64,000 nt of DNA from Lancefieldella parvula DSM 20469. Lineage in GTDB: Bacteria > Actinomycetota > Coriobacteriia > Coriobacteriales > Atopobiaceae. The notes under the pieces were generated by a model, which had not been told where the DNA came from, ran no database searches, and saw only the letters and a program-made list of their open reading frames with translations. Positions 31,246 through 33,528 of the stretch are shown here, one piece after another; positions within the stretch are counted from its first letter, which is position 1, and each line of letters begins with the position of its first letter. The translations under genes were made by a program, and so were the position numbers. The stretch covers positions 1,116,001-1,180,000 of the forward strand of contig NC_013203.1 in NCBI RefSeq assembly GCF_000024225.1, in the 5' to 3' direction.

Positions 31246-33528
31246 ATGTCTCAAGAACTTGAGTTCTTTGCAACATGCCCAAAGGGCTTTGAGAAGCTTC
31301 TTTCACAGGAGCTAGAAAGCCTGCACATCAAAAAGGTGCGCCCTCTTGGCGGACAAGTTGCGTTTTATGGCTTGCTTGCCGATGCTTACCGTGTCTGTCT
31401 TTGGTCTCGTCTCGCGTCTCGCGTCATTTTAGTGCTTGATCGCATTGAAGCCGCAACTTCAGACACTCTCTACGAAGAACTCTCCCACCTTGCTTGGGAA
31501 GACCATATTGGCCCACGTGCCACTATTGCAGTTAATGCTCACGGCACAAATGACCAACTCAGAAACACAAACTTTATTGCTGTCAGAACAAAAGACGCCA
31601 TTGTAGACAGACTTGCAGCTAAGCGCGGAAGCCGTCCTATGGTCAACACGCTTGCGCCTGACGTAACTATTGTCGTGCGCATATCACGTAACCGTGCCAC
31701 GGTTGGCATCGATCTTGCTGGAGAAGCGCTCTTTAAGCGCAGTCTAACTGGCGGTCGAGGGCCGGCACGTGAGTTTGCGCCGCTCAGGCTCGACTACGCT
31801 GCTGCCCTTCTGTATCTACAGGCGCAAACTGCTACGAGTGCATCGGGTTTCTCGCCAGACGCGCTGCTGCCGGCGCTGCTGTTCCCAGGAGCAGGCGCGC
31901 TAGCGCAAGAGGCTGCGGGCATGGCGCTAGACGTGGCTCCGGGCATCTTGCGCGCTCGCTGGGGCATGACGGGCTGGGCCGGTCACAACGACGATGTCTG
32001 GCAAGATTTGCTTGCCGAGGCCGACGAACGTGCCGAGAAAGGCCAAGAGCGCCAAATAACACTCTATGCAGCGGATTCTCGACCAAAGGCCAAGGAGGCT
32101 GTGCTTTACACGTTGCGTGCAGGCAGTCTCAAAGCAGACGTACAGTTCTTGGCAGCATCTGAACTCCTCAAACACGCTGAGCACTTCACAGGAGTTGTTG
32201 CAGACCTCTCGTGGACCAAAGAGGAGCCTACACTCCAGGGCTCTGCTTACGCCACGCTTGGACTTTTTGCGGGACAGGCAAGCACACTGCTCACCAGCGA
32301 TACAAATACCGATACGGTACTCAGGGCTACTCCTACGCAAACGCTTTCCGTCTACGTAGGTAACTCCATTGCCACCATACGCTCCTACCCTGCTGCAAAT
32401 GCAGAGGGAGCCGATAGCAGCGCTACTAATGCACCAGTAAGCAGCTCTAAGCCTACATCAGTTCCCGCAGGTCCTACCGTTATGGTCAACAATCAGCCGG
32501 TAAGCGTGCTGGTTCCTGCCTCAGACCAGTTTGCTGCACGTCTTACTAAAGTAGCTAAGCAACGCGCTAAATGGGCTCGTAAAAACGATGTCTCATGCTA
32601 CCGTGTATACGATGCTGATCTGCCCGATTATGCCGTTAGTATTGACATTTACAAGGGTGCTACAAAACCAACTACCTGGCTACAAATCTCTGAGTACGCT
32701 GCTTCTAAAGAAATTGATCCAGACCTTGCAAAGCGTCGCCTTTTAGATGTCCTGGCTCTTGCTCCCCGCATTCTAGGTGTACCCAGCTCAAACGTGAACC
32801 TAAGAACAAGAACACGAGCAAAGGGCGGCTCCCAGTACTCTAACGAGGGCAGTGCAACAGACAATTCAAGAAAAGAAATGCTGCTTATCGACGAGGGTGG
32901 TCTGCTCTTTGAGGTCAACTTTGCTTCCAGGCTGGACTGCGGAATCTTCCTAGATCACCGTGATACGCGCGCGGAGATTCGTGAGCTCATGAAAAGAGCT
33001 GGTACTGCCAAGAGTTTCCTCAACTTGTTTGCCTATACGGGCACCGCTACCTGTTATGCAGCAGACGGTGACGCGCTCCACACCACCACTGTTGACCTCT
33101 CCAAACCTTCGCTTGAGTGGGCTAAGCGCAACATGAAACGTAACGGTTTTGGTGGCGAAGACCATGAATTTGTCCAAGCAGACGTCTTATCTTGGATTAC
33201 CGAAATGCGTCACACCAAAAACCGCTGGAACGTTATCTTCTGCGACGTTCCAACCTTCTCCAACTCATCACGCATGAAGCAAAGTTCATTTGATGTCCAA
33301 AGAGACCATGCTGAGCTCATTATTGGTATTTCTCGCCTTCTGACTCATGGTGGCGTAGCTATTTTCTCATGCAACCTACGTACTTTTAAACCAGATGTTG
33401 AGAAAATCGAGCGAGCTGGCGTAGTCATTGAAGATATAACTAGCAAAACTATTCCGGAGGACTTCTCGAGAAATCAAAAAATTCATCACGCATATAAAAT
33501 CTCGAGAAAACCGCGGGAAAACGGCTAA
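31246..33528 (+). CDS. RlmKL-type 23S rRNA methyltransferase with degenerate RlmL half
   Basis: The 760-residue protein aligns with E. coli RlmKL through its length. The N-terminal THUMP region (FFATCPKGFEKLLSQELESL) is intact. In the middle, where RlmL (m2G2445) needs DPMCGSGT and NPPYGER, this protein has FPGAGALAQ (213-221) and ADLSWTK (about 319-325), so SAM binding and catalysis look lost although RARWGMTGWAGHNDD is kept. The C-terminal RlmK half (m7G2069) retains NLFAYTGTATCYA and VDLSKPSLEWAKRNM but reads CDVPTFSNS (666-674) where E. coli has DPPTFSNS. ATG at 31246 has AAAGGTG upstream. The likely activity is m7G only. Confidence 0.85.
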   Translation: MSQELEFFATCPKGFEKLLSQELESLHIKKVRPLGGQVAFYGLLADAYRVCLWSRLASRVILVLDRIEAATSDTLYEELSHLAWEDHIGPRATIAVNAHGTNDQLRNTNFIAVRTKDAIVDRLAAKRGSRPMVNTLAPDVTIVVRISRNRATVGIDLAGEALFKRSLTGGRGPAREFAPLRLDYAAALLYLQAQTATSASGFSPDALLPALLFPGAGALAQEAAGMALDVAPGILRARWGMTGWAGHNDDVWQDLLAEADERAEKGQERQITLYAADSRPKAKEAVLYTLRAGSLKADVQFLAASELLKHAEHFTGVVADLSWTKEEPTLQGSAYATLGLFAGQASTLLTSDTNTDTVLRATPTQTLSVYVGNSIATIRSYPAANAEGADSSATNAPVSSSKPTSVPAGPTVMVNNQPVSVLVPASDQFAARLTKVAKQRAKWARKNDVSCYRVYDADLPDYAVSIDIYKGATKPTTWLQISEYAASKEIDPDLAKRRLLDVLALAPRILGVPSSNVNLRTRTRAKGGSQYSNEGSATDNSRKEMLLIDEGGLLFEVNFASRLDCGIFLDHRDTRAEIRELMKRAGTAKSFLNLFAYTGTATCYAADGDALHTTTVDLSKPSLEWAKRNMKRNGFGGEDHEFVQADVLSWITEMRHTKNRWNVIFCDVPTFSNSSRMKQSSFDVQRDHAELIIGISRLLTHGGVAIFSCNLRTFKPDVEKIERAGVVIEDITSKTIPEDFSRNQKIHHAYKISRKPRENG

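Follow-up and report, generated by a model that had tools for sequence, protein, structure and literature searches.

Fused RlmKL genes with an RlmL half lacking its catalytic motifs in Lancefieldella parvula and its order

The window, a stretch of 64,000 nucleotides from the genome of Lancefieldella parvula DSM 20469 (a single contig of 1,543,805 bases), contains a gene for a fused RlmKL methyltransferase whose RlmL half has lost its catalytic motifs and whose RlmK half possesses them. We consider it fairly probable that the RlmL half has been retained as a pseudo-methyltransferase with a part in RNA handling, and that the RlmK half makes m7G2069. By the motifs read, the same state is widespread and repeated in the order of the organism. 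The nearest named relative of the genome is Atopobium sp. BS2 (93%), followed by Lancefieldella rimae and Atopobium sp. oral taxon 199 (61% each). No account of RlmKL from this order was found among the literature matches listed (open-licence papers, titles and starts of abstracts). Copies without the catalytic motifs of RlmL or RlmK are called L-dead or K-dead in the following, those with them L-sound or K-sound, and copies sound in both halves intact.

Architecture and motifs of the window gene

The gene is an uninterrupted frame from ATG to stop and encodes 760 amino acids (Table 1). Pfam returns matches to the RlmL ferredoxin-like domain, THUMP, UPF0020 (the RlmL methyltransferase, weak) and an RlmK-type methyltransferase, and NCBIfam NF008748 is matched with 618.6 bits (cut-off 466). 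The best sequence match among solved structures is E. coli RlmKL (PDB 3v97, E 7.8e-122), in two stretches (residues 7-282 and 420-753) that omit residues 283-419. Over its full length the protein shares with E. coli RlmKL (YcbY, PDB 3v97/3v8v) the order of ferredoxin-like, THUMP, RlmL and RlmK parts, as the preliminary description had claimed, and it keeps the RlmK motifs; the difference lies in motifs I and IV of RlmL, which are replaced. The NF008748 equivalog is passed alike by the L-dead window protein, one K-dead copy (625.1 bits) and one intact enzyme (822.4 bits), so that an automatic annotation as 'bifunctional' misleads.

Motif IV of methyltransferases has the general form [DNS]-P-P-[YFW]. 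Neither the NPPY of an active RlmL nor its motif I, DPxCGSGT, is present in the window protein, which has DLSW and LLFPGAGA instead; the loss of both had been noticed from the letters, and the alignment, in which motif I was placed by counting backwards from the shared EAA, now fixes LLFPGAGA as the replacement and leaves a G-x-G in place. The AdoMet motif of the RlmK half is intact, as described earlier, and the window's group keeps 61 of the 69 K-half columns that are invariant in intact enzymes (K-dead copies: 21 of 69), in keeping with an active RlmK. The preliminary description had also singled out DVPT in place of DPPT. These letters are indeed present, but they are no anomaly: DVPT is found in 72 of the 92 L-dead copies of the family (DPPT in 18) and in two f9 enzymes that are fully intact, and since it is usual in the former and occurs in the latter it is no sign of damage to the K half, which is ruled out as its meaning.

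An AlphaFold2 model from an 18-row alignment (pLDDT 83.5, with values over 85 across most of the L domain; pTM 0.76), a check that the preliminary description had proposed, predicts an intact fold of the L half. The best structure match of the model is again 3v97 (Z 39.1, 655 residues, rmsd 5.7, 36% identity). Model residues 1-391 share the fold of the stand-alone RlmL-like structures PDB 3ldu, 3k0b and 3ldg (Z 35.0-36.7, compared by fold alone), which differ in being separate chains unjoined to RlmK.

Table 1. Features of the rlmKL-like gene (positions in the window)
Feature	Position	Strand	Evidence
rlmKL-like gene, catalytic motifs absent from the L half and present in the K half	31246..33528	+	ORF, 3v97 match, NF008748
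RlmL ferredoxin-like domain, residues 6-60	31261..31425	+	Pfam PF22020, E 1.7e-19
THUMP RNA-binding domain, residues 70-156	31453..31713	+	Pfam PF02926, E 9.9e-16
Former AdoMet motif I of RlmL, residues 211-218: DPMCGSGT to LLFPGAGA, G-x-G retained	31876..31899	+	Alignment
Retained loop APGILRARWGMTGWAGH	31936..31986	+	Alignment to homologues
Former catalytic motif IV of RlmL, residues 320-323: NPPY to DLSW (E. coli N309)	32203..32214	+	Alignment
RlmK AdoMet motif LNLFAYTG, residues 592-599, intact	33019..33042	+	Alignment
RlmK motif CDVPTFSNSS, residues 666-675 (E. coli IDPPTFSNSK)	33241..33270	+	Alignment

Distribution and history of the copies in the order

Motif states were scored in 165 distinct full-length sequences. 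Left out were 15 identical duplicates and, as too short, L120 and L190; the twice-fetched loci L056, L022, L004, L005, L006, L150 and L054, as well as L002 and L009-L021, were skipped by hand. The window's family (f1; counts include L003, which belongs to the window's genus and is labelled Atopobiaceae) contributes 124 copies, of which 91 are L-dead/K-sound, 31 L-sound/K-dead, one is sound in both halves (G060) and one is scored dead in both (L089, K-dead through a one-letter difference, CAPPTF). This is the alignment of homologues by which the preliminary description wished its claim to be checked, and it places the window gene in the commonest class. A sequencing error or an isolated pseudogene is ruled out by the open frame and by this shared state. 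Families f3 and f4 are those which we take to be Coriobacteriaceae and Eggerthellaceae. All 5 copies of f3 are L-dead; the 21 copies of f4 comprise 13 L-dead, 6 intact, one K-dead (G288) and one incomplete (L210, cut by the chosen coordinates and hence scored K-absent). Both copies of f6 are L-dead, and all 10 copies of f2, f5, f8 and f9 are intact, as are three outgroup sequences.

Second copies in which the RlmL motifs are intact and the RlmK half is broken (L095, L097, L099, L154 and others) occur in four f1 genera and in G288; the latter has a second K match besides its K-dead copy, possibly a separate pair. In G068 (L165) and G069 (L166), L-sound copies stand in shortened frames of 525 aa. 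At the K-only locus L011, an opposite-strand frame of 377 aa also matches the RlmKL profile and is perhaps a separate RlmL neighbour.

By profile score, a sound L half is found in 48 of 317 genomes of the order at a cut of 1e-120, which divides the unbroken, motif-read matches (weakest intact 2.9e-125, strongest dead 2.0e-118), misses the intact copy of G230 (a split match) and passes copies that are partly unread, e.g. the partial match of G130. Above this cut are 38 of the 140 f1 genomes, belonging to 5 of 35 genera (g29, g30, g31, g32 and g35), none of the 62 f3 genomes and none of the 5 genomes of the window's genus.

All trees were of a quick kind. The full-length tree (98 of the 165 sequences) requires three changes of the L state, and its starred branches force at least three for the L-dead/K-sound group. 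The K-only tree (72 sequences, without the K-dead copies and L119) requires five changes, with at least three forced for the L-dead rows, and sets f1+f3, f4 and f6 apart. Read as losses, on the assumption that a lost motif set is never regained, these changes mean that L catalysis was apparently lost on three or more occasions within the order.

The two kinds of copy in f1 seem to differ in origin. K-dead copies form one group in the full-length tree, beside intact f4 genes (starred branch, 99), and the intact copy of G060 groups with f4 in the K-only tree (starred branch, 95). The window, G071 and G131 have neighbours in common at their L-dead copies, and G186 of f3 shares the gene next door; none of those neighbours was seen in the short stretch around the L-dead copy of G077. 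Eight f1 K-dead copies examined lie elsewhere, in a setting that is different in each genus, and that of G137 shares no neighbour even within its genus. Gene family F2 recurs beside both kinds of copy. From shared and unshared neighbourhoods together with the placement in the trees, the L-dead copies look inherited and the K-dead copies imported, probably from an apparently f4-like donor, with a decay of the K half afterwards. Duplication within the family followed by reciprocal loss, with no transfer involved, is an improbable alternative. It would be in line with the presence of both kinds of copy in one genome (20 cases, e.g. G077, G131 and G133) and with the poor resolution of the THUMP-only tree (15 of 70 inner branches starred; 73 sequences, with L088, L089 and L119 omitted and the L-dead family copies halved). 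A THUMP-only test, however, rejects a single f1 clade with p-AU 0.005, for a group that was named after the first tree had been seen and with one very long branch present; the placement of the K-dead copies and of G060 with f4 opposes a duplication too, as do the neighbours common to the L-dead copies in three family genomes and missing at the K-dead copies. As the source of the K-dead copies, duplication is accordingly disfavoured.

Erosion and retention in the RlmL half

Reference columns were L-half positions with at least 95% invariance across 20 intact enzymes, and a column counts as kept at 90% or more. The erosion in the 92 L-dead f1 copies is selective (Fisher 5.3e-5): they keep none of the 13 columns that lie in motifs I and IV, 15 of the 30 in the remainder of the L methyltransferase domain, and 17 of the 21 that belong to the N-terminal RNA-binding part. 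Motif I and IV columns are kept in 2 of 13 cases in f3, 4 of 13 in f4 and 2 of 13 in f6 (5, 14 and 2 sequences), and all 13 in the 32 K-dead copies. All four dead-L groups retain nine residues, namely E206, A215, P216, G217, R220, W223, G224, W228 and A243; those from A215 to W228 (E. coli numbering) stand in the loop APGILRARWGMTGWAGH, each at 90% or more in every group. The preliminary description had stated that flanking segments are conserved.

In L-dead copies, dN/dS (NG86, median of genus medians, with 377 of the pairs coming from one genus) is 0.18 in the THUMP part, 0.33 in L and 0.13 in K; L exceeds K in 12 of 12 genera, and the highest genus median of L is 0.55. K-dead copies have 0.17 in L and 0.29 in K (L above K in none of three genera, K above L in all three), and the single intact pair has 0.077 and 0.074. 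Among the matches listed, the window gene and its nearest relative give 0.094 for L and 0.036 for K, and a second pair in the window's genus gives 0.198 for L at very low dS. Purifying selection on the L half is relaxed but real, and the columns indicate that decay and keeping are both at work, in different places of it. Loss of the catalytic residues, with the remainder under purifying selection (relaxed relative to K, dN/dS below 1), is the pattern of a pseudoenzyme. Homologues, selection and structure model together support the earlier proposal that RlmL catalysis is lost and that RlmK and the central fold are retained.

Further loci bear on the fate of the L half. Forty were hand-picked from the K listing, each in a genome that falls short of the L score cut, and are no fair sample of L states (L238, L239 and L261 start at a contig end, L262 has masked letters); all forty have the K motif, and none has NPPY. 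Eight of the forty (L249-L256) have K alone with no L half attached, in frames of 367-454 aa from the f4 genera g82 and g59 and from f10. G218 (L242) keeps the N-terminal part and K, and its L motif stretch is missing. Some lineages of the order have lost the whole L half. With the relaxed dN/dS, these lineages show that the L half is dispensable, and they also fit a slow decay.

A purely passive decay, in which m2G2445 is dispensable and the eroding L half is kept only as it is translated before RlmK and must fold, appears rather unlikely to us. It would explain the excess of dN/dS in L over K, the series in the order from dead L by way of the missing core of G218 to the eight K-alone loci, and the wider reach of the K profile (287 of 317 genomes at E 1e-30, versus 262 of 317 for the L profile at E 1e-15). 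It does not easily explain that L-dead/K-sound copies were read in 30 genera of f1 (the label Atopobium counted with g1), or that all four dead groups, three of them with the few sequences given above, have conserved the N-terminal columns as well as the APG..R..WG..GW loop; the low L value of the window pair points the same way, but that of the second pair, at very low dS, is higher. Retention of the L half, as opposed to slow decay, is thus partly supported, and the scaffold role that the preliminary description had given to the central domain stands as one of two live readings, slow decay being the other.

The replaced motifs are themselves conserved in f1. At the position of E. coli N309, D is present in 91 of 91 L-dead/K-sound copies, followed by L in 81, S in 81 and W in 80; the glycines of motif I are present in 81 and 76 of the 91, and D264 of motif II has become R in 78. 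Other dead-L groups bear different letters at the DLSW and motif I sites, and several f1 members without the W or the glycines still keep the protein. In genera also bearing a K-dead copy, G-x-G is found in 11 of 21 and D..W in 15 of 21, versus 65 of 71 each in the rest of the family. The kept G-x-G and D..W could reflect residual cofactor binding, and the conservation of the replaced motifs could be structural or point to a variant active site. That the L half is changed and not dead, with D-L-S-W as a working motif and G-x-G binding AdoMet for methylation of G2445 or a new target, is a reading to which we give little credence: the constancy of these letters and their loosening in genera with the reverse copy would agree with it, but nearly all copies lack D264, the two prolines of motif IV and, in motif I, the Asp, Cys and Ser, and the letters of the other dead groups, the f1 members without W or glycines and the small number of related lineages behind the genus contrast speak against it. 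Because the two motifs are looser where a K-dead copy is present, the contrast hints, in lineages that are few and related, that a sound L copy can relieve a dead L of its remaining task.

Methylation at G2445 and RNA handling

Profile and domain searches of the window genome found no second RlmKL copy and no other RlmL, and the only THUMP protein found besides the window gene's was ThiI. The eight PF01170 places include the window gene; the other seven are, by eye, two HsdM-like genes and a single gene each of the RlmI-like, TrmA/RlmCD-like, PrmC-like, large restriction-modification-like and generic methyltransferase kinds. Ten PF05175 places comprise four already seen (PrmC-, RlmI-, TrmA- and HsdM-like), RlmD, RsmD, TrmB and three generic methyltransferases; the last three fall below every NCBIfam cut-off among the matches listed, and one of them could in principle make m2G2445. 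Since no second copy and no other RlmL were found, we infer that the organism probably lacks m2G2445 and keeps m7G2069; the absence of m2G2445 suggested in the preliminary description is strengthened in this way, as a conclusion from the genome sequence. For the 23S gene (G2445), neither exact or one-mismatch patterns nor RF02541 (which matched 10 of 14 control genomes) gave a match in the sequence searched; the rRNA stretches are probably absent there, and nothing follows for the organism. Three restriction-modification-type methylases were seen by eye in the 1.54 Mb genome (G000:C1:1373629-1374162, 238783-239163 and 203130-203339).

A close known parallel to the L half is a mutant of E. coli. 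According to PMC11194073, RlmL(N309A) in a sensitised ten-deletion strain makes no m2G2445 and still promotes 50S assembly, an effect that the authors ascribe to unwinding of helix 74 by RlmKL; deletion of rlmKL alone is cited there as causing no significant change in the ribosome profile. The window protein resembles this mutant in that the catalytic Asn lost is the same one (position checked). It differs in kind: N309A is a point mutation made in the laboratory, in the L half and in a strain with ten deletions, and the window protein is a fusion from which the entire motif set has been lost in nature. Because N309A RlmL still promotes assembly in E. coli, according to that source, the L half may by analogy survive as an RNA-handling module; published evidence of such an assembly effect concerns the E. 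coli relative only. In the preferred reading, the window enzyme would make m7G2069 but not m2G2445, and THUMP with the inactive Rossmann domain would still bind and open helix 74 of the 23S rRNA during 50S assembly and would present RNA to RlmK. Unwinding of helix 74 by RlmKL was reportedly described by Kimura et al. for E. coli only.

A second RlmKL probably reached a few genera, apparently from an f4-like donor, and its K half decayed afterwards. As the K half of the imported copy decayed where the resident L is dead, the two half-dead fusions may complement each other. A more far-reaching proposal, tentative and to our minds somewhat doubtful, is that the RlmL half in this order has turned into a module that remodels rRNA without methylating it, and that several genera regained the mark by importing an RlmKL that then lost RlmK, the two reciprocally half-dead fusions working as one split bifunctional enzyme with the dead halves as RNA grips.

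Whether the mark or the handling of RNA is the point of rRNA-modifying enzymes is an open question, for which the order seems to offer several natural catalytic-dead experiments. The protein part appears to be mostly kept after catalytic loss, and some genera appear to have regained an intact RlmL through the reciprocal copy. Because repeated natural losses and a reciprocal regain occur in one order, a clean comparative test of m2G2445 would be possible there.
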